Origin: a virus
Reading direction: 5' to 3' (one strand)
Virus record (IMG/VR): IMGVR_UViG_3300025769_000686
Location: 1 to 26,929 of that record
DNA: 26,929 bases
Part shown: positions 12,796 through 25,677 of the stretch, piece by piece
Position numbering within the stretch: the first letter of the stretch is position 1
Layout of the letters: each line of letters opens with the position of its first letter
Translations under genes and position numbers: made by a program
The notes under the pieces: generated by a model
Seen by the model: only the letters and a program-made list of their open reading frames with translations
What the model was told of the DNA's origin: nothing
The model's database searches: none

Positions 12796-13964
12796 TATGC
12801 TCTACCTCCAACTTGATTCTGCATATTATACAAAAGTTCAGCACCTTTTGATCTTTCTTGTGCTTTACCTTTACCACCCATTAAACTTCCAAGTCCACGA
12901 ACTGTTCTAGCATTTACTACAAACTCTCCATCAGATAACATAGCAGGGATATCATCAGAAGTTTCAGTGCCAGGTCCTTCGATCTCACCATTTTTTCTTG
13001 GAAAACCACCTTCAGCTAAACTCATAAGTCCTCCATTCTTTACAAAGACTCTTGGATCTACTGGAGCATAACTAATAGGTGTGGGTTTGTCAAAACCACT
13101 TAACACTTTATCTGTTTCCACAACCTCAAATAAACCTTTAGGCATAGCTTCTTCATCAGTAGGTATTTCACTTTTTAAGTAATCACCACCAAGTTTTGTT
13201 ACTAATGCTAGTTGTAATGCTTTTTCAAAAGTTAAACCTTTTTTCATATTTTTACCAACTTCACCTTTTACTTGACTTTCAACAGCTCCAGTTAAACCAA
13301 GTTTATCTGTGACTTTAGTTACAGCCTCACCTACTGATCCACCTTTAAAAGACATTTGACCACCAGAACCTAATACACCTTGTGTTGCTGTTGTTCTACC
13401 GGGTGCACCGCCTGATGCGATAGTATCTCCAAAAAGAAAAGAAGAAAAATCGGTAGCTGCTGTTTTACCAGCTCCTGTTAAAAAACTTAATGGTGTTCCT
13501 GCACCAAATTTTGCAACCTGACCAAGAGATCCAATACCAGGAGAAAAATATCCACTAGCTCCTGCACCTATATAATCTTTTACCCCATACTTTTGAGCTT
13601 CAGGTTCAAAAAAAGTAGCTCCTGCAGCAAGTAAGGGATTTCCTGTTAAAATACCAACTGCTTCACCAAGATACTTTTCTGAATCACCAGGTAAGATATC
13701 TTTAATAATTTTTCTAATACCTTTAATAAAAAACTCTGGAAGACCAGTTTTTGGATTAATAGAGTTTGCTTTACTCCCAACTCTGAAACGAGAAGGTTCA
13801 AGTCCTATTTTTCTAAATTCTTTATATATAGCATCTTTTAAATCAGGGTTTAATTTGAGTAAATCAGAGGGAATGACCATTTCGTCTTCTGCCACGTGAG
13901 CCAAGAAGCTATCTTCATATCTACCTAATTTTGCTAATTTTTGTGCTTGTATTTTTTCAGTCAT
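12795..13964 (-). CDS. Virion-associated protein with C-terminal 'SDDIPAMLSDGEFVV' motif (389 aa)
   Basis: The 389-residue product has a Gly/Ala-rich hydrophobic middle (EAVGILTGNPLLAAGATF, about 101-118) and a C-terminal block SLAEGGFPRKNG followed by GPGTETSDDIPAMLSDGEF and VVNARTVRGLG. This 'G-GT-TSD-IPAMLSDGEFV' ending recurs in large structural proteins of many phages, often tape-measure or internal proteins, although its role is not known. A good AAGGGA ribosome site stands six bases before the ATG. It is the first gene of the internal-virion block and diverges from the 99-residue plus-strand gene, so a promoter for the block could lie in the 59-bp spacer. Confidence 0.6.
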   Translation of the reverse strand: MTEKIQAQKLAKLGRYEDSFLAHVAEDEMVIPSDLLKLNPDLKDAIYKEFRKIGLEPSRFRVGSKANSINPKTGLPEFFIKGIRKIIKDILPGDSEKYLGEAVGILTGNPLLAAGATFFEPEAQKYGVKDYIGAGASGYFSPGIGSLGQVAKFGAGTPLSFLTGAGKTAATDFSSFLFGDTIASGGAPGRTTATQGVLGSGGQMSFKGGSVGEAVTKVTDKLGLTGAVESQVKGEVGKNMKKGLTFEKALQLALVTKLGGDYLKSEIPTDEEAMPKGLFEVVETDKVLSGFDKPTPISYAPVDPRVFVKNGGLMSLAEGGFPRKNGEIEGPGTETSDDIPAMLSDGEFVVNARTVRGLGSLMGGKGKAQERSKGAELLYNMQNQVGGRA

Positions 13965-14023: not shown

Positions 14024-14323
14024 ATGAAAGTAATTCGTAACTTCCAAGACTTTAAATTAACCGATTGCCCCTTAGTATTGGTTAAATGGCTTGATGCTCA
14101 TGATGCTCTTGAGACAGGATGGCATGAATGGGCAGACATTTTTCGTAAAGCAAAGCTAGCAGAATGTACTTCAGTAGGTTATTTATTTCATCAAGATGAT
14201 CAAAAGATAGTATTAGTTGCCGATGAATGTGGAGAATTTGGATCTCGTATTACAGTTATACCAGGCAACTGGGTAGAAGATGTAGAGTTTTTAAAAAAAA
14301 GTAAGTCTAAGGGATCTTCTTAA
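14024..14323 (+). CDS. Conserved small phage protein of unknown function (99 aa, plus-strand island)
   Basis: A 99-residue soluble protein with the pattern VKWLDAHDALETGWHEW, CTSVGYLFHQDDQKIVLVAD and a final VIPGNWVEDVEFLKK. The 'V-W-DAH...W...SVGYL...DD...LA...IP..W' layout belongs to a small family I have seen in unrelated phages, without known function. It is the only gene on the plus strand in this part of the window. It converges on the methyltransferase gene with a 17-bp overlap of 3' ends, and its upstream spacer is divergent. There is no clear ribosome site before the ATG. Opposite orientation to the late genes may mean early or middle expression. Confidence 0.75.
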   Translation: MKVIRNFQDFKLTDCPLVLVKWLDAHDALETGWHEWADIFRKAKLAECTSVGYLFHQDDQKIVLVADECGEFGSRITVIPGNWVEDVEFLKKSKSKGSS

Positions 14324-14906
14324 GCCATCTTTCAGGATCATTTGATTTATCGTGATACCACGTAGACTCTTTGCCCATCATAACAGCTAAATGCACTGCT
14401 TTTTTATAGTAATCAGTTAAACCCTTTTTACATCCCATTTCTACAGATTGCATATAATAATCATCACCAAACATTGTTCCATCATCTTTAATTTTAGGCA
14501 ACCAATTTATAACATCTTCTGTTACTGCTTCATATTTATGATCAGCATCAACCATGACACCATCAAAATACTTGTCATCAAATAATTTAACAGCCTCATC
14601 AGTTCTCATTTGATGTACTTTTGTAATCCATCCTTCTTCAACAAGATGTCCACAATTTTCCATAAACTCATCATAAAAAGATCTCATATGATCATGTTCA
14701 CCTGCCGTGCCTTCAAAAGTATCTACAACATGAAATTCAAATTTTTTATTATGTTCCTTGAGCCGTGATGCAAGAAAGTTGGTGCTTTTTCCAAGCAAAC
14801 ATCCTAGTTCTATAAATTTACTTCCTTCGGGTAATTTATGAGCAATCATCTCATATGTTTCCATATAATTAAAGTATCCTGGTATTTCAAACCATGGTTT
14901 TGACAT
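14307..14906 (-). CDS. Class I SAM-dependent methyltransferase (Methyltransf_24-like)
   Basis: A 199-residue Rossmann-fold methyltransferase. SAM-binding motif I is FIELGCLLGKST (31-42), the acidic residue after strand 2 is in VVDTFEG (Asp62), and VMVDADHKYEAV (117-128) with DGTMFGDDY (142-150) forms the following strands and active-site face. The VDADHKYE motif is typical of the Methyltransf_24 / cephalosporin-hydroxylase-like group, which methylate small molecules or sugars. No DNA-methylase target domain or NPPY motif is present, so DNA methylation is unlikely. A strong AAAAGGAG precedes the ATG. It closes the tail/modification block, and a role in modifying a glycan or virion protein with the nearby glycosyltransferase and oxygenases is inference. 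Confidence 0.82.
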   Translation of the reverse strand: MSKPWFEIPGYFNYMETYEMIAHKLPEGSKFIELGCLLGKSTNFLASRLKEHNKKFEFHVVDTFEGTAGEHDHMRSFYDEFMENCGHLVEEGWITKVHQMRTDEAVKLFDDKYFDGVMVDADHKYEAVTEDVINWLPKIKDDGTMFGDDYYMQSVEMGCKKGLTDYYKKAVHLAVMMGKESTWYHDKSNDPERWLKKIP

Positions 14907-14924: not shown

Positions 14925-15176
14925 TTATTCTTTTATTACGGCACCTGTAAATAATTTTGGTGCAATAACATTTACGTCTCGTCTAATTTCACTATCAGTG
15001 GTGTCGGTGCTAGGATCGGCAACGTCATTGTTTGCGTGATCCTCAGATTCATATTCGACACCTGTTCTTGTATTAGTAATAGTGGTTTCTACCTTACAAC
15101 TATAGACAGGGATTTGATTTCCCTCTGCGTCATACTCATAGCGTAAGATAATTGGTTCATCTATAATCTTTGCCAT
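14925..15176 (-). CDS. Small acidic hypothetical protein (83 aa)
   Basis: An 83-residue acidic protein, MAKIIDEPIILRYEYDAEGN at the start, then a Thr/Asp-rich middle (NNDVADPSTDTTDSE) and a short beta-like end KLFTGAVIKE. I recall small proteins of this general type near tail genes in uncultured marine phages, without function. No motif, signal or membrane segment was seen. It sits between the DUF6065-like gene (37-bp gap) and the methyltransferase (18-bp gap). A small virion component is possible. Confidence 0.65.
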   Translation of the reverse strand: MAKIIDEPIILRYEYDAEGNQIPVYSCKVETTITNTRTGVEYESEDHANNDVADPSTDTTDSEIRRDVNVIAPKLFTGAVIKE

Positions 15177-15213: not shown

Positions 15214-15924
15214 TTATTTGTATGACTTTTTTGTCCAAAACTTACTTTTATAATTGTCAAAAACTTTACTAAAATATCCTAGTCTTTTTAGATTTAATTT
15301 ATTTTTTTCATTATCAGACACATTACTAAGTTCTATTTTCCAATCCTCTCTCTTAAAAGGAATGACCATTGCCATAGGAGTTCCTTGTTTAAGCACATGG
15401 TCTTTTTTAGGATCTGCTGTCCAATAAAAAGGAAAATTTATAGGTAATTCATATAAATCAGTATCCACCACACCAGTTACAAGTTCAAAAGGCAACGGAT
15501 GATTAAAAGGCGTAACGAATATACAACTATAGCCTGGAGGAGTTTTTATTGTCCAAGAATTAGAAAATTTTAAAACTATGTCTATTGTTGCTCTTGGGTT
15601 TCTAAGCTCTTTTGAAATTTGTAAAGAATGATGTTCTTCAACCTTAAGATATTCAAGAAATTCATTAGGTATGGCTAAATTTAAATCAAATCTACATTCA
15701 TCAATTTTTTTATCATATATATAATCAATGTCTGTCTGAAAAGGAATTATGTAGCCAGTTGTAAAAGCATCTAAAAAAGGAATACATTTTTTAACAGTTG
15801 AATATACTTCTTTGTTTTTTAATAATCCTGGCATTTTTTTAAATGTTTCAGGAATAAATTGTAAAGAAGGTTTTGGTTCTGCAACATAACCTTTTAAGGG
15901 TGAAGAAAATTTTATTGTTTTCAA
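15214..15924 (-). CDS. DUF6065-like protein (236 aa)
   Basis: The 236-residue product matches the pattern I associate with DUF6065: a substrate-like opening FKKMPGLL, then STVKKCIPFLDAFTTGYIIPF (about 42-62), a central SNSWTIKTPPGYSCIF (about 126-141), TGVVDTDLYELPINFPFYW (about 152-170) and GTPMAMVIPFKRE (about 181-193). The fold is probably all-beta, cupin-like. Function is unknown to me, but such genes often neighbour 2OG-Fe(II) oxygenases in marine phages. The start is TTG at 15924, two bases after the preceding TAG, without a clear ribosome site, so coupling is likely. No membrane or export signal. Confidence 0.7.
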   Translation of the reverse strand: MKTIKFSSPLKGYVAEPKPSLQFIPETFKKMPGLLKNKEVYSTVKKCIPFLDAFTTGYIIPFQTDIDYIYDKKIDECRFDLNLAIPNEFLEYLKVEEHHSLQISKELRNPRATIDIVLKFSNSWTIKTPPGYSCIFVTPFNHPLPFELVTGVVDTDLYELPINFPFYWTADPKKDHVLKQGTPMAMVIPFKREDWKIELSNVSDNEKNKLNLKRLGYFSKVFDNYKSKFWTKKSYK

Positions 15925-15925
15925 A

Positions 15926-16282
15926 CTATTGTTGTGCTTTGATCTCTAACACGGATACTTTAATAACCAAATCGTTAGCAGAACTTGAAGTGACTTTTAG
16001 GCTATCCCCTTCCTCAAAAACAAATGTACCATTGATGATTTTTGTAGCTTGATGAGCCACCGCAACATTATTTATTTCAAAATCAGTGCTTCCATCATTG
16101 TAAGTTAGCACGGCATCTAGAGTTCCAGATCCTGAATCATTATGTAGAACAATTGTTTTTGCAATAAAAGTGGTCACTGGAGTGGGAGGTGTTGCAGCTA
16201 CATTAGCTACAGGAACAGTAAATAAAGTATTCGCTCCTGTGTTCGCAGGATTGGCTGTAAAGGTTCTAAATCGATCAGACAT
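15926..16282 (-). CDS. Probable small virion (beta-sandwich) protein (118 aa)
   Basis: A 118-residue Thr/Val/Ala-rich protein predicted to be all beta, beginning MSDRFRTFTANPANTGANTL and with alternating hydrophobic strands (TIVLHNDSGSGTLDAVLTY, TKIINGTFVFEEGDSLKV). The composition, lack of enzyme motifs and position among virion genes suggest a small Ig-like or jelly-roll structural component, such as a decoration or tail-accessory protein. It overlaps the 61-residue gene by one base upstream and sits two bases before the TTG of the DUF6065-like gene. I cannot name a family. Confidence 0.65.
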   Translation of the reverse strand: MSDRFRTFTANPANTGANTLFTVPVANVAATPPTPVTTFIAKTIVLHNDSGSGTLDAVLTYNDGSTDFEINNVAVAHQATKIINGTFVFEEGDSLKVTSSSANDLVIKVSVLEIKAQQ

Positions 16283-16467
16283 TATTCACTTACTCCTCCT
16301 ATAGCAAAAAAGACAGCTCTTCGTGTTGCTTCTTCTTTTGTGTCTTCTGTGTATTGTGAGTTTAATTGTTGAATCATTTCTTCCAATTGTCTTACTAATT
16401 CCGAAAATTGTTGTCTTTCATATTGATCGGGAGCGTCAGGAAATCTCTGTAATGTTAATTTAGCCAT
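16282..16467 (-). CDS. Small helical phage protein (61 aa)
   Basis: A 61-residue protein starting MAKLTLQRFPDAPDQYERQQ, with a Gln/Glu-rich amphipathic helix that could form a coiled coil (QFSELVRQLEEMIQQLNSQY). The 'LTL-RFPDAP--Y-R--F--L-R-LE' opening is one I have seen repeatedly in small proteins next to virion genes of marine phages, always without function. Its ends touch both neighbours with one-base overlaps, which supports it being a translated gene in this operon. Confidence 0.7.
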   Translation of the reverse strand: MAKLTLQRFPDAPDQYERQQFSELVRQLEEMIQQLNSQYTEDTKEEATRRAVFFAIGGVSE

Positions 16468-17009
16468 TATAGATTAATTATATCCCAAACTTCGCAACAA
16501 ACAAAATTAAAAGCCAAGCTTATTCTTAATTTATCGTTTTTATTTTGTATAACTCTATGTGGTAAATGCTCTGGAAATATAAAGATTTGAGAAAATTCAG
16601 GCTTTATTTTAGTTCTTTTTTCTATATTAAATTCAATCTCAGAGTTTTCATCTGTTAAATAAATAACTGCCGATATATATCTATGTATAGGACCTGTGTG
16701 AGTATGAAATTCTTGGTAAAAATCTTTTTCATATATATTAATCCAAGACTCTCTAATATATCCATCTAAAAATAATTTTGTCTGATACATGTAATTAGAA
16801 ACATGACTTAAGGCATGCATTTTTAATTCATGTAGATCTGGTAAATTAAGAATATTATGCGTTAATGTATTTGATGTTCTAATTTTACAATTCCAAGTTT
16901 GTTCTTCAAACTTTTGTTGATGAGGTGTAATAAAATCTAATGCTTTTTTACAAACATTTTCTTCTATTTTTGCACTATAAAAGCTTTCTTGTACGATGGG
17001 GTTAAGCAA
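16467..17009 (-). CDS. Putative 2OG-Fe(II) oxygenase A (HxH type)
   Basis: A 180-residue double-stranded beta-helix protein. The metal-binding region reads WINIYEKDFYQEFHTHTG, with His102 and His104, then YISAVIYL, and the distal part reads FPEHLPHRVI (His151) and KLRISLAFNF (Arg162). This layout matches the 'putative 2OG-Fe(II) oxygenase' group (PF13759-like). That group would use 2-oxoglutarate and oxygen to hydroxylate a substrate, with the final Arg binding the co-substrate. The second proximal residue is His rather than the usual Asp. The start is TTG at 17009 with AAAGGAG six bases upstream, which is convincing. It lies between the 33-residue membrane peptide and small virion genes. Confidence 0.75.
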   Translation of the reverse strand: MLNPIVQESFYSAKIEENVCKKALDFITPHQQKFEEQTWNCKIRTSNTLTHNILNLPDLHELKMHALSHVSNYMYQTKLFLDGYIRESWINIYEKDFYQEFHTHTGPIHRYISAVIYLTDENSEIEFNIEKRTKIKPEFSQIFIFPEHLPHRVIQNKNDKLRISLAFNFVCCEVWDIINL

Positions 17010-17034
17010 ATCTATCTCCTTTCTTCATAAAATT

Positions 17035-17136
17035 TTATAATGTCAATTTTTTAAATTTTTTCCCCATTAAAAATCCAAGAGTGAAAGCTACTCCTAAAAA
17101 ACCAATTATTAAAAGTGTGTGCCATAATAAAAACAT
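17035..17136 (-). CDS. 33-residue single-span membrane peptide
   Basis: An ATG preceded by AAGGAGATAAA opens a 33-residue frame: MFLLWHTLLIIGFLGVAFTL, then GFLMGKKFKKLTL. One long hydrophobic segment (about 2-24) is followed by a positively charged end, as in small inner-membrane proteins with a cytoplasmic tail. It starts one base from the stop of the 609-residue tail protein and fills an otherwise empty gap. Very small one-span phage peptides include holin-like and other lysis-timing proteins, but nothing here proves that. The strong ribosome site makes translation likely. Confidence 0.6.
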   Translation of the reverse strand: MFLLWHTLLIIGFLGVAFTLGFLMGKKFKKLTL

Positions 17137-17137
17137 T

Positions 17138-18967
17138 TTATCTCCTTCCGTCAGGCTGTATATCAAAACGTTGAGTTCCTAATCTCCAAGAAGTTCCTGC
17201 TGTATTTGAAACAACATTGACAGTAAATTCCCTTCCTCTTCCTCGTAGACTTACAAATTCTGTTGTATCACTAAATGTTGTAGTTTTGGTAACACTTTGA
17301 GTATTGTTAGGGTAATATTTAAATTCTAAATCCATGTTTAAAACACCTGATTGATTCTGAACATCAGGTATTAATTTCTGTACTATCTGTATATCATTTC
17401 CCTCACCAATTTCAACCGAGCCTGATTTAACAAAAGCAGTCATAGCTTGACCATCTGCGTCATTACCTGTCTCATGTAAATAAATTTGAGTTGCACCATC
17501 AGTCAATCCTAATATTGTTTCATTATTTGCAACTGTGTTAGCAAGATATTCAGTTCCCACTGGATTGTCATATACTTCACGATCAATCCATGATGTGCGG
17601 GCAAGAGTTCCAGTCCACCAAGTTTGCTCTAAGTAATTGTAAGCTACAATTGCATTTATTTGATCAGATCCCGTTCTAGGATAAAACCATAGTATTTCAT
17701 TAAATTCACCATTATGCCCGGCAAAAGCATTTTCTGCAGCTGTTTGATTAATATTATTAAAAACAAATTGTTCTACTGTGCAAGGTAATTTTTTCACCGC
17801 ACCATCAAACAGGTAGAAAGAATCTTGCGACATCCAATAAGCAGTACCATTTAAATCAACACCCGCATGACTTCCAATAATTCCGCAGTTCTGACCTAAT
17901 TGTCTAAGACCAAAAGTAAAAGGTGGACCAATAAACTGTAGTGAGTGTAGTGAGGTATCTGTCCATACTAATATTTGACCTCTAGAACGTTCCGCTGCCA
18001 TGATCCGTGATCCGTCAGCAATACGTAGTGAACCAGCAGTATTCTCTGCTGTTGGTTGATATGAGGTAATATTTTCTTGATCAGAAAATCGAATAAGTAA
18101 ATCATCTTGAGTAGCTGTATCGCCAATCGTGCTTTCTGTTCCCATAATCATTAAATGTCTGTCAGGTGTTGACACTAAACTTAATCTTGAAGCCGTTGGA
18201 GCACTAGTAACAGCAGCAGCTCTTGTAGAAACACCTGCTGAAGTATCCCATTGAAAAGTACCACCGTTTAAAACAGTGGCTATTAAGTCTTCACCAAAAT
18301 TATCTAATGACCATTGTCTCGCTTCAAGTGTTACATTAGAGCTTGATCTAGGTGTACCCCATGTAGCAGTGTTCCAAGTGGCTGTTCCCCAACCAAAAGC
18401 AGGAACAGAAAATTCTGGACCTAAGTTTATCTGATAGGTAGCATTACCTGTTCCTCCTCCAGCTGCTGTAGAACCAGATGCGGTGCTTGTATGAGTAACT
18501 ACATATGCAGCGGAATTAACTACAGAAGTTACTTCAAACTCTTTATTCATATCTAGTCCATCTATCGCTGAAAATGAATCAAAGGTTACAAAGCTCCCTT
18601 GCACGCAACCATGACCGGTATCTGTGACTACCACAGAGGTTGTTGCGTTTGTTGTAAAAGGATTAGTTAATGCAGTTGGTCCTCGTCTAATGGGAGTAAT
18701 GTCATAAGCTAATCCCTCTTGTATTACGTATAATTTTCTATCTGTGCCTATAGCATTGTATCTTGTGCCATCTAAGGCTACCCAAGCATGTTGATCTCTA
18801 GCCACTCCTACTAGAGTTGTAGCAATAAACTTCTCCCATCCTTGTATTTTTTGGGGTAATCCCTGAAAAAAACGTACGTTATCACCGTCTGTCCACTTGC
18901 CTTGGCCTGTGTAATCAGTGACTTCTTTATTAATACCTGGAGCTGGTCTAAAATTAACTAAGGGCAT
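17138..18967 (-). CDS. Large tail-associated virion protein, probable tail nozzle/hub type (609 aa)
   Basis: A 609-residue, mostly beta protein. The start MPLVNFRPAPGINKEVTDYT and KWTDGDNVRFFQGLPQKIQG (24-43) is a well-known opening in tail-associated proteins of marine phages. Repeated beta units (VWTDTSLHSLQFIGPPFTFG, AYWMSQDSFYLFDGAVKKLP) look like propeller blades, as in the T7 gp12 or P22 gp10 nozzle family. Thr/Ala/Gly-rich linker (about 155-175). The C-terminus RGREFTVNVVSNTAGTSWR resembles a closing beta domain. Nozzle identity is inference from size, composition and context; structural role is fairly secure. It lies between the DUF6065-like relative and the 33-residue membrane peptide. 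Confidence 0.7.
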   Translation of the reverse strand: MPLVNFRPAPGINKEVTDYTGQGKWTDGDNVRFFQGLPQKIQGWEKFIATTLVGVARDQHAWVALDGTRYNAIGTDRKLYVIQEGLAYDITPIRRGPTALTNPFTTNATTSVVVTDTGHGCVQGSFVTFDSFSAIDGLDMNKEFEVTSVVNSAAYVVTHTSTASGSTAAGGGTGNATYQINLGPEFSVPAFGWGTATWNTATWGTPRSSSNVTLEARQWSLDNFGEDLIATVLNGGTFQWDTSAGVSTRAAAVTSAPTASRLSLVSTPDRHLMIMGTESTIGDTATQDDLLIRFSDQENITSYQPTAENTAGSLRIADGSRIMAAERSRGQILVWTDTSLHSLQFIGPPFTFGLRQLGQNCGIIGSHAGVDLNGTAYWMSQDSFYLFDGAVKKLPCTVEQFVFNNINQTAAENAFAGHNGEFNEILWFYPRTGSDQINAIVAYNYLEQTWWTGTLARTSWIDREVYDNPVGTEYLANTVANNETILGLTDGATQIYLHETGNDADGQAMTAFVKSGSVEIGEGNDIQIVQKLIPDVQNQSGVLNMDLEFKYYPNNTQSVTKTTTFSDTTEFVSLRGRGREFTVNVVSNTAGTSWRLGTQRFDIQPDGRR

Positions 18968-18982
18968 TTTGTCAATATACTA

Positions 18983-19630
18983 TTATTTTGTAAGTTTTCT
19001 AGGTCTGATTTTATTAAATTTTTTAAAGTATTTTTTAACACCAGATATTAGACTACTAGAACGAGCCATTTTTTTTGCTTCTTCCAAGATAGCTAAATCA
19101 TAATTGTATTTAAGGTCTATTTTCTTTTCCGAATTAAACTTTATAAATAGCCATGGATTACCTTTTTTAAAATCTAAAACTAACTCAGTAGCTTTTTTTG
19201 GTATTAAATATGCTGAGTGATTAGGTCTAATCCAATTTTTAATATTATAACATCCACCAATATTTAAGAGGTTATTCATCGGTGGTCCCCAAGCTTCAGT
19301 GACACAATCTTCATCAGACCAATATGTAATTTCTAATGGAGAGAACTGCATATCGTAAGATAAATCAGAACTACCTTGTATCTGACAAAAGGCTCTAGCA
19401 ACTTCTATTTGTAAGTTTGATTCCTTAAAAATTACTTGCTCTTGATCAAGTGCAATTTTACAGTAAAAATCAAGAGGCATTGGTATAACAAAAACATTTT
19501 TATAAAAGTCTGTTATAGCAGGGCAGTTAATATAAGGTTTTCCTATCTCATAGTAATTTAAATACCTGACTGGTTCTAATAGTATTGCTTTAGGTAATAC
19601 CTGTGAGGTATAAGCATAATTTATTAACAT
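18983..19630 (-). CDS. DUF6065-related protein of unknown function (215 aa)
   Basis: A 215-residue soluble protein. CPAITDFYKNVFVIPMPLDF (about 36-55) parallels the 'CIPFLDAFTTGYIIPF' part of the DUF6065-like protein at 15214-15924, and the later IKNWIRPNHSAYLIPK plus GNPWLFIKFNSEKK parallels its central 'W-I-TPPGYS'. The two may be distant paralogues with a cupin-like fold. The C-terminus is strongly basic (KKYFKKFNKIRPRKLTK), unlike the other copy. It shares one base with oxygenase B and precedes the tail protein by 15 bases. The relation is judged by eye and is uncertain; activity unknown. Confidence 0.6.
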   Translation of the reverse strand: MLINYAYTSQVLPKAILLEPVRYLNYYEIGKPYINCPAITDFYKNVFVIPMPLDFYCKIALDQEQVIFKESNLQIEVARAFCQIQGSSDLSYDMQFSPLEITYWSDEDCVTEAWGPPMNNLLNIGGCYNIKNWIRPNHSAYLIPKKATELVLDFKKGNPWLFIKFNSEKKIDLKYNYDLAILEEAKKMARSSSLISGVKKYFKKFNKIRPRKLTK

Positions 19631-20139
19631 TACTCTTGTAGAATACGAAAATTAAAAGCTAGTGTAATCCTTTGATGGTTTGCCTCTCCACAAGGGCTAA
19701 CAGAATGAGGCAGCTCTCCTTTAAAAAAAATCATACGTCTTTCTACTGGTACGAAATTAAATTTATCAGGTATTAACGCAGGAACTAAATGATGAAAATT
19801 TGTAGTTGCTTTTTCACAACAAACTTTGTGATAATAAACTACTGACCACTCTTCAAAAGAATGAACATGTACGTAATTAAAATCATTACCTGAATTTATA
19901 TTTAACCAAAAGGTGTTCAATTGTGCCTTTTTACCAATGGTTGCAAAACTATCTAATGCAAATTGTAATAAATCATTAAAACCAAAAGTAATAAAATTGC
20001 TTTGATATCCTCCTGCATTACTAATTTTTCTACCCTTATCAAAAGTTAAAATATGATCTATGTGTGATTGTATGACGTTAGCATCACCTTTATAATCATT
20101 ATAAAAAACTGATTCTTTGTAAACTACTTGTTCAATCAT
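19630..20139 (-). CDS. Putative 2OG-Fe(II) oxygenase B (HxH type)
   Basis: A 169-residue protein of the same PF13759-like layout as oxygenase A: TFWLNINSGNDFNYVHVHSF (76-95; His91 and His93), SVVYYHKV, then MIFFKGELPHSVSP (His145) and HQRITLAFNF (Arg157). As in A the proximal pair is HxH rather than HxD, and the final Arg that binds 2-oxoglutarate is kept. The N-terminal half differs strongly from A, so substrates may differ. It overlaps the glycosyltransferase by 8 bp and the 215-residue gene by one base, so it is certainly in one operon with them. Substrate unknown; modification of a virion protein, a glycan precursor or a host molecule are all possible. Confidence 0.78.
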   Translation of the reverse strand: MIEQVVYKESVFYNDYKGDANVIQSHIDHILTFDKGRKISNAGGYQSNFITFGFNDLLQFALDSFATIGKKAQLNTFWLNINSGNDFNYVHVHSFEEWSVVYYHKVCCEKATTNFHHLVPALIPDKFNFVPVERRMIFFKGELPHSVSPCGEANHQRITLAFNFRILQE

Positions 20140-20941
20140 TATCCGTTTTTTGTTTAAATAATGAGCCTACATGTCCTTTAAATGCCCTATTACCAAAATG
20201 TGTTAGAGGCATAGCTATATCAGCCCATATATCTCCTCCACATTCTTGCCATAATCTTGAAAAATAATAATCCTCTGATAGATATCTTTTTTTACCTGCT
20301 GTTTCATATACACCTGCACAGAATAAATCATAACAATTGTCAGAGCTATAAGACTGACCATTTACAATTTGATCTGAATCATATTTACGTTCTGGAAATT
20401 TTTTCATCATGGTTGTAAAAACTTCTCTCTTTACAAGCATCATACCTGTAGCTGCTTCTTGCACCTTGCAAAAACCATGCTCCATTTTAACATTTAATGG
20501 ATCATCAAAATTAAGATTATAGCCTAAAGACTTTACTTCAAGTTCTTCAGCATCAGCATTAGGATTTTCTTGTAAAGCTTGTTTTATTTTATCAAAATAA
20601 ATATGTTTACGAGGATAAATACCACACACAACATCTTTATCAAAAGAAAGCAATCTTTCAATATTTTGAGCCTGAAACCCTATGTCAGAATCAATAAACA
20701 ATAAGTGAGTAGCAACAAAATCTTTATGGTCCATCATCATGGAAACAACTGTATTTCTTGCTCGGGTGATCAAACTCTCATTACCCATTGTTTGTATACG
20801 CATTCCTACATTATTAGCCATTGTCCATTGTTGTAATTGTAGTAAGCCATGCATTGTGTTTTCTGTAAGCATACCTCCGTACATAGGCATTCCTAAAAAA
20901 ATTCTAAAGTTTTTGTTTTTTAATTCTTCTTTATTAAGCAT
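20132..20941 (-). CDS. GT-A-like glycosyltransferase
   Basis: A 269-residue protein with GT-A features: an N-terminal nucleotide-binding strand FRIFLGMPMYGGM (12-24), SLITRARNTVVSMM (56-69), the metal-binding DxD in LLFIDSDIGF (80-89; Asp84, Asp86), VVCGIYPRK (104-112), EAATGMMLVKR (162-172), and the acceptor-side acidic pair in YLSEDYYFSRL (220-230) followed by a histidine in PLTHFG (248). It would transfer a sugar from a nucleotide-sugar donor. Similar genes are frequent in cyanophage and marine phage genomes. It sits between oxygenases B and C with 8-bp overlaps on each side. Glycosylation of a hydroxylated tail residue is an attractive but unproven link. Confidence 0.85.
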   Translation of the reverse strand: MLNKEELKNKNFRIFLGMPMYGGMLTENTMHGLLQLQQWTMANNVGMRIQTMGNESLITRARNTVVSMMMDHKDFVATHLLFIDSDIGFQAQNIERLLSFDKDVVCGIYPRKHIYFDKIKQALQENPNADAEELEVKSLGYNLNFDDPLNVKMEHGFCKVQEAATGMMLVKREVFTTMMKKFPERKYDSDQIVNGQSYSSDNCYDLFCAGVYETAGKKRYLSEDYYFSRLWQECGGDIWADIAMPLTHFGNRAFKGHVGSLFKQKTDND

Positions 20942-21479
20942 TTAATTCTCCTAACCATTTTACTGATATTCTAGCGATATGTGGTTGAGTAAAAGCATTA
21001 GCTCTGTGTTTATCACTAGCTGTTATTGCTATAACCCTACCATATTTATAAGGGACAGTAAAATTCATAGTTTCATTTATAAATTCACCACCAATATCTT
21101 CAACAATCTCATTACTTAACATTAATATATAAGCTATTTGATCATCTCTTCCATCTGTGTGAAAACTACCATCCATACCTTTAAATTGTAGATTCGTATC
21201 ACATTCCATTAATCGTAAATCTTTATTTAATCTTTGATTAATAGCCTTAAAAGCATTTATAAAATTATTAGATAGATTTCTATTTGAATTGTATCTTATA
21301 TCGTCTTCACTAAGTCTATGAAAAAAATAATCACCTAATAATCTGTGTGAGCCTCTTTCTTGATAAGGCCAAGAATTTCTATTAGCAACATTTTGTGCAT
21401 ACCAGGGAGCTTTAATTAACTCACTTGCTATTTCATCTAAATATTTTTTATCAAAAATATCATCACAATAATCAATCAT
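20934..21479 (-). CDS. 2OG-Fe(II) oxygenase C (prolyl-hydroxylase-like)
   Basis: A 181-residue double-stranded beta-helix oxygenase. The facial triad is visible as GSFHTDGR (His107, Asp109) and DKHRAN (His158), with Arg170 in HIARISVKW positioned to bind 2-oxoglutarate. The motif IGGEFINETMNF (129-140) between them matches the 'GGE' strand of prolyl-4-hydroxylase-like enzymes. The N-terminus (MIDYCDDIFDKKYLDEI) is the usual lead-in helix. It follows oxygenase D by two bases and overlaps the glycosyltransferase by 8 bp. Substrate unknown; relatives hydroxylate proline, lysine or nucleobases. Confidence 0.83.
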   Translation of the reverse strand: MIDYCDDIFDKKYLDEIASELIKAPWYAQNVANRNSWPYQERGSHRLLGDYFFHRLSEDDIRYNSNRNLSNNFINAFKAINQRLNKDLRLMECDTNLQFKGMDGSFHTDGRDDQIAYILMLSNEIVEDIGGEFINETMNFTVPYKYGRVIAITASDKHRANAFTQPHIARISVKWLGELNA

Positions 21480-21481
21480 TA

Positions 21482-22078
21482 TTACCTATAACCAATGTTA
21501 GGTCTTTTATCAAACGCCCACTCTGGATGATAAGGACCATCCTCATCAATATAGTGAAGAAAAGCTTGTGCACAATGATCTCCATTAAATTTGTTTCTCC
21601 AATGTATTAACTCCTCGCCCATATAAACTACACCATCTCCTGGTTTTAAAGTAACTGAAGTAAGTAAACTATATCCATCGTTAAGATTTCTATCTTTGTT
21701 AAACTGACCAAAACTAATTGCCCAAGGATCTCCACCAAAATTAATAGTTACTGAGTATTGACAAGAAGGTCTATCAGTATGCGGAGGTAATTCATCACCT
21801 CTGCTATAAACTCTTGTGTAAGTGTAGGTAGGACATAGTTTTTTTTGAGTTATAAAACTTAATTTTTCACACAGTACACTTGATAAAGTCTCAGTGCTTA
21901 AGTCTGCATAACAGTATCTTAGATAATCCATTCTTGGTTTTTTAGTATCTTGACTAAAATCAACATTAGTACAAGATTTTAAAATTAAATAATTATATAT
22001 AAAATTAGTAAGCTCCCCACTTATCATTTGTGGTACATATACATATTTGTTTTGTTTAAAAAAAGCTACTGGGTCCAT
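21482..22078 (-). CDS. 2OG-Fe(II) oxygenase D
   Basis: A 198-residue oxygenase of a third subtype. TYTYTRVYSRGDELPPHTD (84-102) supplies His100 and Asp102, QYSVTINFGGDPWAISFG follows, and GDGVVYMGEELIHWRN (147-162) supplies the distal His159. The arginine usual for 2-oxoglutarate binding is not in the expected slot (CAQAFLHY, 169-176), so the co-substrate anchor may differ; Arg161 is nearby. The opening FFKQNKYVYVPQMIS resembles PhyH-like or Asp/Asn-hydroxylase-like entry strands. It overlaps oxygenase E by 13 bp and precedes C by two bases. Confidence 0.78.
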   Translation of the reverse strand: MDPVAFFKQNKYVYVPQMISGELTNFIYNYLILKSCTNVDFSQDTKKPRMDYLRYCYADLSTETLSSVLCEKLSFITQKKLCPTYTYTRVYSRGDELPPHTDRPSCQYSVTINFGGDPWAISFGQFNKDRNLNDGYSLLTSVTLKPGDGVVYMGEELIHWRNKFNGDHCAQAFLHYIDEDGPYHPEWAFDKRPNIGYR

Positions 22079-22644
22079 ATTATTAAAACTTTTCTTTCTC
22101 CCTCTGTAACAGGAGCAACCTTATGAGGATACATAAAATTTGAGGGAAACATTATTGCATCTCCTTTGTCTAATTTAACACCCTTCATATGATTTTGAAC
22201 GAAAAGTTCTCCCCCTTCATATTCGTCAACAGAATTTAATCCGACTATAATAGTTAAAATTCTAGGATGTTTTTTCACATAATCAGTATGATAATCATAA
22301 TGACCTCTCATTTTTGAATCATAATACAAAAATTGAAAGTAATTATCTCTTGAATGATAAAAACTACATACACTTTCCCTATATGAGTCTTCTAAAGATG
22401 AAGTAAATTTTTTTAAATCATTGAATATAAATCTTCTGGACACAGAAGAACCTATGTCATCTTCGAAAAGTCCGTTTACTTTCACCGATCTAATATTTTG
22501 ATTCTCACCATTAGAAACAGCACCATTTTCAAAAGCATCAACATTAGAGTAAATCTCTTCGTTAATTAATTTAATCAAAGGTTCCTTCATCACCTTTTTA
22601 ATTGTGATGGAGTAATCTAATACCGAACTTTTAAGATTAAGCAC
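22066..22644 (-). CDS. 2OG-Fe(II) oxygenase E (prolyl 4-hydroxylase-like)
   Basis: The 192-residue product is the clearest P4H-type enzyme here. FLYYDSKMRGHYDYHTD (105-121) supplies His119 and Asp121, LTIIVGLNSVDEYEGGELF (130-148) forms the central strands, GDAIMFPSNFMYPHKVAP (161-178) supplies His174, and EGERKVLIIW (181-190) supplies the 2-oxoglutarate-binding Arg184 or Lys185. The start is GTG at 22644, overlapping the preceding stop by 8 bp; an internal ATG at 22590 would cut the lead-in strand of the domain. In marine viruses such enzymes have been proposed to hydroxylate peptides or repair alkylated bases; the substrate here is unknown. Confidence 0.87.
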   Translation of the reverse strand: MLNLKSSVLDYSITIKKVMKEPLIKLINEEIYSNVDAFENGAVSNGENQNIRSVKVNGLFEDDIGSSVSRRFIFNDLKKFTSSLEDSYRESVCSFYHSRDNYFQFLYYDSKMRGHYDYHTDYVKKHPRILTIIVGLNSVDEYEGGELFVQNHMKGVKLDKGDAIMFPSNFMYPHKVAPVTEGERKVLIIWTQ

Positions 22645-23131
22645 TTAAGATGTTATTTTTTGCAGTGGTAGCAGCTGATACGGCAGTGGTTTGAGCAGAA
22701 GCTTGAGCATTGGCTAAGTCTGATCCATATGTTTCAGAACTTGAATCAAGATTTGCTACAGCATTATCAAACTCTGTTTGATAAGTTGAATTGTAGGTTT
22801 CTTCATATGCCTTTGCACCATTCCATCTTGTGACCATAGTGTTTGCCCAAGCAGGTATATCAGATGGGCCAATATCTTGATTAGGCCCTGTTCCGTCAAA
22901 CTCTATCCAACCAGAATTTGTTGCTGGTTTATATTGTAAAGCGTGAACATTATCTGGAACAATATCAGCACCGTTTATATTTAAATAAGCAGTACCATCA
23001 ATTAATACATCTACTTCGGTATCGCCTGAATATTCTTTAGGCCCATTATTAGGGTTTTCTCTATTTACATCAGCATCGTTAATAATAGTAAGTCGATTAT
23101 TTATTGTTACGTTGTTTATTGTTATTGGCAT
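22637..23131 (-). CDS. Probable tail-fibre-associated virion protein (164 aa)
   Basis: A 164-residue Asn/Thr/Ala-rich protein, beginning MPITINNVTINNRLTIINDA, with beta-like repeats, a central SGWIEFDGTGPNQDIGPSD and a helical Ala/Ser-rich C-terminus (LANAQASAQTTAVSAATTAK, about 139-158). The composition and position after tail-fibre genes fit a small fibre or fibre-tip protein or its assembly partner. AAGGAC stands about ten bases before the ATG, which supports this start although it overlaps the preceding gene by 35 bp. No enzyme motif. I do not recognise a named family. Confidence 0.6.
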   Translation of the reverse strand: MPITINNVTINNRLTIINDADVNRENPNNGPKEYSGDTEVDVLIDGTAYLNINGADIVPDNVHALQYKPATNSGWIEFDGTGPNQDIGPSDIPAWANTMVTRWNGAKAYEETYNSTYQTEFDNAVANLDSSSETYGSDLANAQASAQTTAVSAATTAKNNILSA

Positions 23132-23555
23132 TTTTTTTAGTCCTTTTTACCTTTCTTTTTGTATCATTTTTTTTATTAGATAGCAATGCAATATCTTCAG
23201 TAACATCCTCTCCATTTGCAAGAGCATCTTGACTGGCAGAAATATTGCCCCAAATACTACCATTTTCTTTGTTACCTTCTTCTTTCTTTTTTTGTGTTTC
23301 CACTAAAGCTAAGGTAACCATATTTGCCTTAACCATTTCATTACGAAAAGACTCTATAGAAGCGTTTGTTTGTACTTGTTTTCCTGAATTTTCAACTAAA
23401 AGTAACGGGAGCCACGCTATTGAACATCCCCATTCTTGTACGTTTTGACCTGTCTGAGGATTTTTTCCCTGTAACATATTATACCAGATACACTGATGTT
23501 TTATGCATTTTTTATTTAAAAGAGGGCACTTTCCGTCTGGATCGAATATTGGCAT
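23097..23555 (-). CDS. Cys-containing phage protein with basic C-terminus (152 aa)
   Basis: A 152-residue protein with cysteines at 10, 17, 22 and 44 (GKCPLLNKKCIKHQCIWYN, later EWGCSIAWLPLLLVE) that could bind a metal, then a helical middle and a very basic Asn/Lys/Arg-rich tail (KRKVKRTKKNANNNKQRN). The first 50 residues match a family I have often seen next to tail genes in marine phages, unnamed. There is no clear Shine-Dalgarno. The 3' end overlaps the 164-residue gene by 35 bp in another frame, unusually long for this genome. Nucleic-acid or polyanion binding by the tail is inference. Confidence 0.65.
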   Translation of the reverse strand: MPIFDPDGKCPLLNKKCIKHQCIWYNMLQGKNPQTGQNVQEWGCSIAWLPLLLVENSGKQVQTNASIESFRNEMVKANMVTLALVETQKKKEEGNKENGSIWGNISASQDALANGEDVTEDIALLSNKKNDTKRKVKRTKKNANNNKQRNNK

Positions 23556-23575: not shown

Positions 23576-24616
23576 CTAGTCTTTGGAACATGCAATTACA
23601 TTTGCAAATTTTAAATCCATATTGGACACTGCTAAAGCAGTGGTAGCACTTGCACTTCCACCAAGAGTTCCACCTGTAACTGGGTGACTATGAGAACCAC
23701 CTCCACCAGTGCTACTAGACTGAACATTACCACCACGTGATACATCAAAAAAGTTTCTTTGTCCTACTAATTGTGGTTGATTATAATCTGTATGAGTATG
23801 AGTAGGCATTGCAGGAGCACCAATACTAGTGGCTCCCAAAGACATACCAGAGGTGTCTGTTGTGGCACCACTTACATCGTCAAAAGTAAAAGCTCCGGAA
23901 GCAGTATTTTTAGAATTATTAAATACAGTTGCAAAACTATCTGCTCCGCCTGTTCCAGCACCTGTTCCTGTTACCACTCTCAAAGTAGTAGTGTTTATTG
24001 AAGCATCAGTATTTTGAGTCCATCCACTAGGAGCTGCACCTTGAAAAAATAAAGCGGTTGTACCAGAAGGAATACTTGATACCCCAGTCAAAGCAGCTCC
24101 ATTTCCAGAATATGTGGTTGCATCAACAGTTCCGTTTGCTGCCGTAAACACGGCACCATTTACAGTTAATGAATTTTTAATACTTAAGTTACCTAAAGAG
24201 TTTGCAAAAAGATCTACAACCTCATCTCCATTCTTACAATATAATATTGTATGAGAACCTTGAACAATTTCAACACTGTTTGAAGCATGCCCAGTGGGTG
24301 CTATATCTAAGGTAAAAGAACCTGCGGTATTATTGAATATATAATAATAGTTTTCTACTGCAGGAATAAAAACTTTAATGTTTCCTGTTAAAGTTCCTGT
24401 GAGTTCTATAACTTTATTTGAAGCCTCAGCGGTTGGATCAGCATTATTTGATGTTAATGTAACATCTGCTGAACCTGCTACTGATTTAGCTAAATACCCT
24501 GCTGAAAAAGCATCAACCGTTTCTAGGTTATTGTTTGTGTTATTGCCCCAGGTGTTTGCATTTGCTCCTGTTTGTTGGAGCTCTAATTTATAACTGCTTG
24601 AATAATTACTTGTCAT
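23576..24616 (-). CDS. Tail fibre/collar protein, paralogue 1 of 3 (346 aa)
   Basis: A 346-residue fibre protein. Residues 1-146 (KLELQQTGANANTWG, GYLAKSVAGSADVTLT, VFIPAVENYYYIFNN) align without gaps to the two upstream copies and are the likely attachment and shaft part. The second half has a collar-type entry (GTTALFFQGAAPSGWTQN), a glycine-rich turn GTGAGTGGADSF, HxH pairs PTHTHTD (273, 275) and GGSHSHP (309, 311), and the ending MDLKFANVIACSKD. Paired HxH motifs in phage fibre tips can bind iron along a trimer. The segment between the HxH pairs is unrelated in sequence to the other copies and is probably the receptor-binding loop. Confidence 0.82.
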   Translation of the reverse strand: MTSNYSSSYKLELQQTGANANTWGNNTNNNLETVDAFSAGYLAKSVAGSADVTLTSNNADPTAEASNKVIELTGTLTGNIKVFIPAVENYYYIFNNTAGSFTLDIAPTGHASNSVEIVQGSHTILYCKNGDEVVDLFANSLGNLSIKNSLTVNGAVFTAANGTVDATTYSGNGAALTGVSSIPSGTTALFFQGAAPSGWTQNTDASINTTTLRVVTGTGAGTGGADSFATVFNNSKNTASGAFTFDDVSGATTDTSGMSLGATSIGAPAMPTHTHTDYNQPQLVGQRNFFDVSRGGNVQSSSTGGGGSHSHPVTGGTLGGSASATTALAVSNMDLKFANVIACSKD

Positions 24617-24619
24617 GTT

Positions 24620-25675
24620 TTAATCCTTTGTTGCTACTATACTATCTACACGTTTTAAGTCCATAGTAGGTACTGATAAAGATAGATCAGCAGATATTGT
24701 TCCACTCAAAGCAACACCTGTTAAAGGGTGACCATGAGCACCTGATCCACCTGCACCGCCTGAATTTCTAACAGCCACAGTTCTACCACCTTGTCCGTTA
24801 ATTTGAGGTCCCCTTTGATCTCCATAAGGAGATGGCTCAGGGTTAGCTACCACAACTGTGGTATGGTTATGACTTGGAATTTCAGGTGTACTTAATGAGT
24901 GATTACCTGCAGCTATTCCAGATAATGTCAAACTAGAAACATCTAAAGGAGTTCCTGATGATGTAGCTGTTTTTGAACCTCCAAACGTAGTGCTAAAAGC
25001 ATCCGCTCCTCCTGCACCGCCACCTGTTCCTGTAACTACTTGTAAACAACATTCTGTTAAAGTTGAGTTTGTATTTGTAGTAAAACCTGTGGGAGCTGCT
25101 GTTTGTACAAACAACGCTTCCGTACCTGATGCGAATTCTTCTACACCCGTTAAACCCGCACCGTTACCCACCAAAGCTGTTGCCTCAACAACACCATTAG
25201 CGTTCAATTTAATATTATCTCCAACTTTAATTTGAGTTTTTGCAGAAAGATTACCAAAAGAATTTGCAAATAAATCTATAATTTTATTTCCTGTGCAATA
25301 TTGAATAGTGTGAGCACCTTGAGTGATAACTACACCATTAGAAGCGTGTCCTGTAGGAGCCACTGTAAGTGTTTGAGATCCTGTAGTATTGTTAAAAAAT
25401 ATATAATTGTTTTCTACTGCGGGAACAAAGACTTTAATATCCCCAGTTAAAGCTCCTGTAAATTCAATAACTCTGTTAGATGCCTCAGCATTAGGATCGG
25501 CATTATTGGTAGTTAAAGTTACGTCAGCAGATCCCGCCACTGATTTAGATAAATAACCTGCATTAAATGCATCAATTGTTTCGAGATTAGTATTAGTGTT
25601 TTGCCCCCAGGTGTTTGCGTTTGCACCTGTTTCCATTAATTCTAGTTTTAATCTATCTGAATACGTACTTGCCAT
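24620..25675 (-). CDS. Tail fibre/collar protein, paralogue 2 of 3 (351 aa)
   Basis: The same architecture as its neighbours: a conserved N-terminal half (TYSDRLKLELMETGANAN, AGYLSKSVAGSADVTLT) and a collar-type C-terminal half with GTEALFVQTAAPTGF, GTGGGAGGADAF, HxH pairs SHNHT (269, 271) and GAHGHP (314, 316), and the ending MDLKRVDSIVATKD. The inter-HxH segment (about 273-305) is Pro/Gly/Arg-rich (PEPSPYGDQRGPQINGQGG) and longest of the three. A CC pair at 209-210 (TECCLQV) is unique to this copy. It lies two bases after paralogue 3 and three before paralogue 1. Confidence 0.82.
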   Translation of the reverse strand: MASTYSDRLKLELMETGANANTWGQNTNTNLETIDAFNAGYLSKSVAGSADVTLTTNNADPNAEASNRVIEFTGALTGDIKVFVPAVENNYIFFNNTTGSQTLTVAPTGHASNGVVITQGAHTIQYCTGNKIIDLFANSFGNLSAKTQIKVGDNIKLNANGVVEATALVGNGAGLTGVEEFASGTEALFVQTAAPTGFTTNTNSTLTECCLQVVTGTGGGAGGADAFSTTFGGSKTATSSGTPLDVSSLTLSGIAAGNHSLSTPEIPSHNHTTVVVANPEPSPYGDQRGPQINGQGGRTVAVRNSGGAGGSGAHGHPLTGVALSGTISADLSLSVPTMDLKRVDSIVATKD

Positions 25676-25677
25676 TT

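Follow-up and report, generated by a model that had tools for sequence, protein, structure and literature searches.

Several described systems resemble the locus analyzed here: (i) in HTVC023P-type pelagiphages, eight non-orthologous 2OG-Fe(II) oxygenase genes and 'ferrochelatases' lie close together and were interpreted as auxiliary metabolic genes having a heme enzyme as a partner (Wittmers et al. 2022, PMC9599517), (ii) the T4-like phages syn9, S-SM1, HTVC008M, and Mosig carry rows of divergent 2OG genes, and such arrays were interpreted in terms of DNA repair or 2OG signalling (PMC3037559, PMC9146016), and (iii) the polyglycine proteins PF21722/phrog_2295 are of the receptor-binding tip type known from cyanophage Pam3 (gp24) and Salmonella phage S16 (gp38), in a study of Pam3 that mentions neither hydroxylation nor an oxygenase (PMC9608196). 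Enrichment of 2OG-Fe(II) oxygenases and 'ferrochelatases' was reported for seasonal viral groups (PMC11561400). In very abundant ocean phages, genes of both types are counted among the auxiliary metabolic genes. In Mimivirus, the collagen lysyl hydroxylase-glycosyltransferase L230 belongs to a viral family of 2OG hydroxylases that modify the virus's own fibrous proteins. Among the papers listed in literature searches, chiefly from outside subscription journals, none proposes hydroxylation of phage fibres in its title or the opening of its abstract.

The window, i.e. the whole analyzed stretch of 26,929 nt, carries the same genes as the HTVC023P-type clusters; in HTVC023P itself, E, an A-type gene, and D stand in a row. 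The T4-like arrays also include D (T4-GC 615) and mostly an E-type gene, but these cyanophages and pelagimyophages are another phage type and have halogenase or bilin genes as neighbours. A search with the window DNA revealed no near-identical DNA in named phages. In the present work, we reassign the 'ferrochelatase' of these clusters to the 2OG oxygenases, link E and D to the fibre tip, and propose, with a probability of about 0.5, that E-D is a module for hydroxylation (maturation) of the fibre tip, accompanied by exchangeable tailoring cargo. The locus consists of the following genes:

25678..26724, minus strand: F3, tail fibre paralogue, 348 aa (phrog_31104 and phrog_12796 tail fibre; tail-collar type, H-x-H pairs near the C-terminus)
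24620..25675, minus strand: F2, tail fibre paralogue, 351 aa (tail fibre family)
23576..24616, minus strand: F1, tail fibre paralogue, 346 aa (closest of the three fibres to the module; E and D co-vary with its C-terminal half)
23097..23555, minus strand: X152, small Cys/His-containing protein, 152 aa (fibre-module member)
22637..23131, minus strand: X164, small protein, 164 aa (assigned by position)
22066..22644, minus strand: E, predicted core 2OG-Fe(II) oxygenase of prolyl-hydroxylase type, 192 aa (PF13640)
21482..22078, minus strand: D, predicted 2OG-Fe(II) oxygenase of the core pair, 198 aa (wrongly labelled 'ferrochelatase'; metal site and predicted fold)
20934..21479, minus strand: C, predicted variable 2OG-Fe(II) oxygenase, 181 aa (conserved metal-site residues)
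20132..20941, minus strand: GT, predicted GT-A-type glycosyltransferase, 269 aa (phrog_1574 and phrog_34859; D-x-D)
19630..20139, minus strand: B, variable protein of the PF13759 family, 169 aa (site H-x-H...H)
18983..19630, minus strand: U2, rare cargo gene, 215 aa (phrog_17480)
17138..18967, minus strand: STAB, virion structural (stabilization-type) protein, 609 aa (phrog_3287; backbone marker)
16467..17009, minus strand: A, variable protein of the PF13759 family, 180 aa (site H-x-H...H)
15926..16282, minus strand: P118, small operon gene, 118 aa (kept across relatives)
15214..15924, minus strand: U1, DUF6065-type cargo gene, 236 aa (phrog_7084; PF19541 under cut-off)
14925..15176, minus strand: P83, small conserved operon gene, 83 aa (island boundary marker)
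14307..14906, minus strand: MT, SAM methyltransferase of the Methyltransf_24 family, 199 aa (rare cargo; PF13578, E=1.7e-18)
12795..13964, minus strand: TMP, tail/ejection-type protein at the island end, 389 aa (phrog tail matches)

The ORF coordinates agree with the original prediction in that gene ends mostly overlap or nearly touch (D and E share 13 bases), three tandem fibre genes lie upstream (23576-26724), and a SAM methyltransferase gene is present (14307-14906); the five oxygenase-type genes are indeed distinct, with mutual identities of just 15-24%. The view that five of them within 6 kb is a heavy load was not borne out: 36 relatives, retrieved independently of any oxygenase, have islands between the fibre and P83 with 2-10 oxygenases (median 5), and the arrays of HTVC008M, Mosig, syn9, and S-SM1 are comparable. 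In the complete genomes of HTVC023P and HTVC033P, the fibre locus accounts for every detected oxygenase. X152 is kept between the fibre and E in window-type loci. X164, without a confident family match in Pfam and PHROGs profile searches, occupies the slot where other lineages have a fibre-assembly-type protein, and this position suggests a helper role for the fibre.

Five oxygenase-type frames had been expected. All five ORFs were found on the same strand, but the canonical metal site is limited to C, D, and E, since a histidine replaces the acidic residue in A and B. The latter proteins exceed the PF13759 curated cut-offs of Pfam, and by this match they are putatively placed in the Fe(II)/2OG oxygenase superfamily; their site has the form H-x-H...H instead of the H-x-D/E...H triad, and the acid-position column of their families is occupied by His in 185/211 and by Asp in 26/211 cases. 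A loose H-x-D/E...H motif was detected in all sequences of E (265/265), D (244/244), and C (23/23), compared to 15/109 for GT and 6/184 for STAB used as controls. By this metal triad, C, D, and E are members of the Fe(II)/2OG-dependent oxygenase superfamily with predicted activity. C has no Pfam match and matches hydroxylases in PDB weakly; D109, H158, and R170 are invariant and H107 is near-invariant among its relatives, and the family is present in 7 of the 36 islands. Since A, B, and C are present in some relatives and absent from others, as is the DUF6065-type gene U1, the idea that the five enzymes constitute one pathway was dropped.

E passes the PF13640 curated cut-off in Pfam. In the alignment of its relatives, H119 and H174 are invariant, and D121 and R184 are nearly invariant, with a single row (L058) having an H-x-E variant of the triad. 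Comparison with PDB profiles yielded prolyl 4-hydroxylases (E-values 3e-10 to 1e-8), PKHD/PiuC hydroxylases (1e-10 to 2.5e-12), PHD2 (about 1e-4), and, marginally, 6ax6, annotated as 'procollagen lysyl hydroxylase and glycosyltransferase'. Profile similarity to solved prolyl hydroxylases thus assigns E to the prolyl 4-hydroxylase type. E shares the metal- and 2OG-site residues with the prolyl 4-hydroxylases and PKHD/PiuC hydroxylases, and differs from them as a short stand-alone phage domain whose activity is predicted.

In 53 of the 55 relatives retrieved by means of a structural gene (75 of 77 if loci retrieved through D are also counted), both E and D lie between the fibre and GT, and the pair follows the fibre and its small neighbours immediately downstream. 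Five loci contain D-E fusion ORFs with both metal sites kept; HTVC027P retains E and lacks D. The distances of E and D correlate with each other (r=0.90) and with those of the fibre C-terminal half (r 0.70-0.72), versus 0.11-0.12 for STAB, and this pattern of co-variation with the fibre tip persists within subtypes. Where GT directly abuts D, the values are 0.91 for D and the fibre tip and 0.44 for D and GT (bootstrap difference 0.18-0.72). The distances of X152 also track those of D (r 0.72-0.92).

Such co-segregation could arise if the fibre locus were a recombination hot spot, with E-D and the other oxygenases carried along and acting elsewhere on their own substrates. A, B, C, U1, U2, and MT are plainly exchangeable in the same slots, and the co-segregation of X152 is about as strong as that of D; both findings speak for such passive transfer. 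Nevertheless, we consider it unlikely, as it leaves unexplained the near-universal retention of E-D amid the turnover of neighbours, the D-E fusions, and the recurrence of E-D beside fibres in unrelated phages. A co-exchanged recombination block, in which X152 co-varies too, could yield part of the co-variation without an enzymatic link.

In HTVC023P- and HTVC033P-type podophages, the E..D genes adjoin fibre genes, and in HTVC008M and Mosig they adjoin baseplate or tail-fibre genes. Among 48 non-redundant large genes directly upstream of E-D arrays, 37 encode PF21722/phrog_2295 polyglycine proteins; thus, Gly-rich proteins of the S16 gp38 and Pam3 gp24 type are the usual upstream neighbours in related lineages, whereas the window fibres are of the tail-collar type. 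The polyglycine adhesins next to E-D carry a conserved PPVSPPQG loop, a plausible candidate hydroxylation site. The fibre tip loop peptides of HTVC023P and HTVC033P are GNTPPVSPPQGN. Of 60 contigs picked by the PPxSPPQG loop, 56 have an oxygenase no more than 3 kb downstream, and a comparison set picked by X152 has one nearby in 47/66, so the test is not sharply specific; X152 is an unclean negative control, since it neighbours the fibre module itself. The PPxSPPQG loop is absent from the window fibres, and therefore one substrate motif cannot account for every lineage. In an alignment of 64 non-redundant fibres, the H-x-H columns are invariant.

For the E-D module, we infer an activity, substrate, residue, and benefit as follows: (i) E and D would be made together with the late tail genes, (ii) they would hydroxylate side chains on the receptor-binding tip of the adjoining fibre, most likely at proline-type residues given that E is prolyl-hydroxylase-like, (iii) they would move between phages along with the fibre tip and its small neighbour genes, and (iv) A, B, C, and the transferases of the flanking slots would, as exchangeable cargo, introduce or decorate additional groups. 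A more tentative extension is a widespread virion modification system of marine phages, in which E-D travels with each tip and hydroxylates it, at the PPVSPPQG loop in polyglycine tips and elsewhere in collar fibres, and exchangeable oxygenases and sulfo-, carbamoyl-, methyl-, and glycosyltransferases decorate it, possibly providing chemical diversity of receptor binding beyond the fibre sequence. Compared to Mimivirus L230, the window locus has no collagen repeats, and its glycosyltransferase is a separate backbone gene.

The variable slots hold enzymes forming or decorating hydroxyl groups, namely oxygenases and sulfo-, carbamoyl-, methyl-, and glycosyltransferases; MT was found in few relatives. 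The existence of two DUF6065-like genes within 16467-22644 was not confirmed: U1 lies outside this interval and scores 23.4 bits against PF19541 (DUF6065), under the Pfam cut-off of 26.6, and U2 shows no convincing relationship, having no Pfam match and an hhalign probability of 9.6% over 37 columns for a single query sequence aligned with U1/DUF6065. U1 matches phrog_7084 strongly, has a predicted dUTPase-like fold (model and Foldseek), and gave no credible match in a PDB sequence search.

GT, as anticipated, has an invariant D-x-D (D84-x-D86 in 19 sequences). It matches phrog_34859 glycosyltransferase (E=1e-8) and, marginally, A197 in PDB (E=0.05); the D-x-D and the family relationship identify it as a predicted GT-A glycosyltransferase. 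GT is a backbone gene of the phage group, present in 36/36 fibre-to-P83 islands, and might share its target protein with E-D or act on another one. Its distances follow STAB, homologues of which occur in HTVC023P, HTVC027P, and DSL-LC04, more than E or D. It is placed elsewhere in HTVC023P, is present in HTVC027P though D is absent, and was not detected in HTVC033P, a phage with E-A-D. Position and co-variation rule out GT as an obligate partner of the oxygenases. Of the two functions originally suggested for the five oxygenases and GT, tail decoration is the better supported, by E-D beside fibres in several lineages, co-segregation with the tip, fusions, and slot enzymes; however, the five are not a set, and GT is not tied to them. 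The suggested comparison of related genomes likewise gave a divided answer, in which E-D stay with the fibre, whereas A, B, and C undergo free gain and loss, as the original refuting condition foresaw for them.

The other suggestion is that the oxygenases and transferases alter a host surface glycan or a small metabolite, e.g. for blocking superinfection; host defence would be another target. Of the suggested active-site models, that of D (AF2, pLDDT 92.5, pTM 0.88) has the double-stranded beta-helix fold of 2OG oxygenases. Foldseek returned 685 matches at E<=1e-3, and among the top 50, 48 are named 2OG-type oxygenases or epimerase/halogenase relatives, the remaining two being a trypanosomal RNA-editing-complex chain. 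H100, D102, H159, and R161 are invariant among relatives; D has no Pfam match at E<=1 and no credible match in a PDB sequence search. Resemblance of the fold to the small-molecule hydroxylases ectoine hydroxylase, GriE, and SnoN, together with the sugar-type transferases in the slots, is consistent with a glycan or metabolite substrate, but such a substrate predicts neither the allele-level tracking of the fibre tip nor the exclusive placement in the fibre region, making it rather improbable. Still less probable is AlkB- or TET-type DNA repair or hypermodification, as suggested for cyanophage 2OG oxygenases: AlkB proteins are among the Foldseek matches of D, PF13532 matches one D-E fusion below threshold, and repair was proposed in the literature (PMC3037559, PMC9146016), but the genes lie among tail genes apart from the window's helicase and primase genes, and no TET/JBP Pfam match was found among the scanned window proteins or the 25 listed cargo families. 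A role in 2-oxoglutarate drawdown or in iron/heme metabolism with a ferrochelatase partner, despite published proposals (PMC3037559, PMC9599517, PMC11561400), is the least probable, as D is not a ferrochelatase, so the heme argument falls, and a 2OG sink needs no multitude of non-orthologous active sites co-located with fibres.

PHROGs and GenBank label D as a 'ferrochelatase'. This assignment is contradicted by the family search, the predicted 2OG-oxygenase fold, and the conserved 2OG metal site, and ferrochelatase is absent from the top 50 Foldseek matches. We are confident that D belongs to the 2OG-Fe(II) oxygenase superfamily, as judged from the predicted fold and metal site; published readings involving a ferrochelatase partner were thus built on a wrong label. 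This reannotation holds whatever the function of E-D. If E-D in addition matures fibre tips, these genes would belong to virion assembly and not to host metabolism, which would shift the count and meaning of marine auxiliary metabolic genes, and phages would have a new route to diversify receptor binding. Homologues of D also occur in bacteria, in many aquatic MAGs and in some Lysobacter and Methylomonas genomes.

For the window, an IMG/VR virus fragment (26,929 bases, 34% G+C), the collection of named phages contains no near relative; by STAB, a virion structural gene used as backbone marker, its closest named relatives are DSL-LC04 and the pelagiphages HTVC027P and HTVC023P. Its tail operon lies on the minus strand in the order: three tandem fibres, the small genes X152 and X164, the oxygenase-like genes E, D and C, a glycosyltransferase (GT), the oxygenase-like gene B, the cargo gene U2, STAB, the oxygenase-like gene A, the small genes P61 and P118, the cargo gene U1, the island-boundary gene P83, a SAM methyltransferase and a tail/ejection gene. 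The features placed by coordinate are:

23576-26724, minus strand, three tandem fibre genes
19630-20139, minus strand, B, PF13759-type
16467-17009, minus strand, A, PF13759-type
15214-15924, minus strand, U1, DUF6065-type
14024-14323, plus strand, lone ORF of 99 aa adjoining a tape-measure-like gene

The lone ORF is kept in three close relatives (L010, L022 and L023). The U1 model (pLDDT 81.6) predicts a fold like that of dUTPases (Foldseek E about 1e-3; target-normalised TM about 0.65), and U1 and its relatives (alignment A4) share a conserved G-V-V-D-T-D-x-Y stretch resembling dUTPase motif III.

The original prediction of five 2OG oxygenases stands for C, D and E, which have an H-x-D...H site. 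E matches PF13640, and its profile matches solved prolyl 4-hydroxylases, PKHD/PiuC hydroxylases and PHD2; C conserves the H-x-D...H...R pattern, and its hydroxylase matches are weak. For A and B the name 2OG hydroxylase is provisional: they belong to PF13759, a very common phage family, but carry H-x-H. In an alignment of A, B and 209 relatives the first and third histidines are practically invariant, and the iron-binding Asp is replaced by His in 185 of 211 members (Asp in 26), so that a three-His iron site may be present.

Pfam gives no match for D, which PHROGs and many of the 154 phage records encoding a homologue name "ferrochelatase". Residues H100, D102, H159 and R161 are invariant in 59 relatives, and the AlphaFold2 model (pLDDT 92.5) matches hundreds of PDB chains. 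Among the top 50 fold matches, 48 are named 2OG-type enzymes, including ectoine hydroxylase, proline hydroxylases, AlkB proteins and PHD2, and the remaining two are a trypanosomal RNA-editing-complex chain; there is no ferrochelatase in this set. On these residues and the predicted fold, the ferrochelatase label is wrong. Another likely misannotation involves phrog_274 and phrog_2297, through which C, B, E and many cargo genes, all of 2OG-oxygenase type, receive the names "DNA endonuclease V" or "DNA endonuclease". Homologues of D also occur in bacterial/MAG contigs (L501-L570), including those of Lysobacter and Methylomonas isolates and of a Pelagibacteraceae single cell whose contig resembles an HTVC023P-type phage by ORF layout.

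Five oxygenases had been called a heavy load, which was not borne out for this phage group. In 36 complete fibre-to-P83 islands, retrieved with STAB as an oxygenase-blind query, recognised oxygenase-family genes number 2 to 10 (median 5; ten in L077), and arrays of comparable size occur in HTVC008M, Mosig, syn9 and S-SM1. Multiple 2OG copies in published genomes are reported in PMC3037559, and nine in S-SZBM1 in PMC9146016. GT (36/36), E (36) and D (34) are constant or nearly so in these islands; A, B and C vary. A-type genes were found in 30 islands and B-type in 20, each type being a broad family that falls into many divergent clusters. C occurs in 7 islands, U1 in 13 and U2 in one. E and D both lie inside the fibre-to-GT interval in 53 of the 55 STAB-retrieved loci having that interval; L026 and L051 have neither there. 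D has another oxygenase no more than two or three genes away at every locus in every lineage sampled, except at contig ends or where D and E are fused; in five loci they form a single ORF (372-386 aa) retaining both metal sites. Further slot genes encode a sulfotransferase, a NolO-like carbamoyltransferase, GT family 1, JmjC_2, a methyltransferase and superoxide dismutase.

Pairwise protein distances were compared over 50 loci, partly retrieved with D and including related, non-independent sequences. E and D distances correlate at r=0.90; the fibre C-terminal half, or tip, gives 0.72 with E and 0.70 with D, the N-terminal part 0.54 and 0.57, GT 0.24-0.26 and STAB 0.11-0.12. Controlling for STAB in partial Mantel tests leaves E-D at 0.90 and the fibre tip at 0.70-0.72 (p=0.001). 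The pattern is not explained by proximity alone: 24 loci have GT directly against D (median gap 6.5 bases) and the end of the fibre roughly 1.5 kb upstream, and there D follows the distant tip (0.91) more closely than GT (0.44; bootstrap difference 0.18-0.72). The ranking is the same inside subtypes (0.81-0.88 vs 0.59-0.60). X152 co-varies too, so the exchange unit comprises the fibre tip, its small neighbour genes and E-D. GT is a backbone gene: HTVC023P has it in a displaced position, none was detected in HTVC033P, and HTVC027P has it but lacks D.

In the best-supported reading, the fibre tip is hydroxylated by E and D as the fibre assembles. The data show that E and D are paired, are fused in places, co-segregate with the fibre tip and retain metal sites, and they include the predicted fold of D; activity, residue and benefit are inferred.

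Other lineages have similar arrangements: large genes followed by E-A-D in HTVC033P-like phages, and E-A-A-E-D adjoining tail genes in HTVC008M-like myophages. The oxygenases detected in HTVC023P, HTVC027P and HTVC033P are all in the fibre region, with none detected outside it. PF21722/phrog_2295 polyglycine proteins make up 37 of 48 non-redundant large ORFs directly upstream of E-D arrays, and many contain a loop such as GNTPPVSPPQGN; the four tandem fibres of HTVC023P have one copy each. When viral contigs were searched for the loop in DNA and the downstream genes inspected, an oxygenase lay within 3 kb downstream in 56 of 60 usable loci. The X152-selected comparison set gave 47 of 66; thus, aquatic fibre loci are generally rich in oxygenase genes. 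In Pam3 gp24 and S16 gp38 the receptor-binding tip is of the polyglycine type (PMC9608196), whereas the window fibres are tail-collar proteins and lack the PPxSPPQG loop. A prolyl target would fit the E relatives and the PPVSPPQG loop but, as a single motif, not these collar-type fibres. All three window fibres carry two H-x-H pairs, whose four histidines do not vary across 64 non-redundant fibres. These pairs are reminiscent of the tip of T4 gp37, which binds iron.

Oxygenase arrays are already known. Wittmers et al. (PMC9599517) describe eight non-orthologous 2OG genes with a "ferrochelatase" partner in HTVC023P-type phages, whereas D is here a predicted 2OG oxygenase; PMC11561400 reports enrichment of the AMGs phrog2954 "ferrochelatase" and phrog61. 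The role put forward in PMC3037559 is 2OG signalling or DNA repair, and PMC9146016 cites repair. The passages cited from these four papers make no link to fibre tips; the correction of D and the fibre-tip module are the addition made here.

Tryptophan halogenase genes adjoin the arrays of syn9 and HTVC008M (L264, L118), possibly another tailoring activity. The E-D cassettes of L064 (4165-6103) and L065 run opposite to the tail operon, a case of the whole module having flipped naturally.
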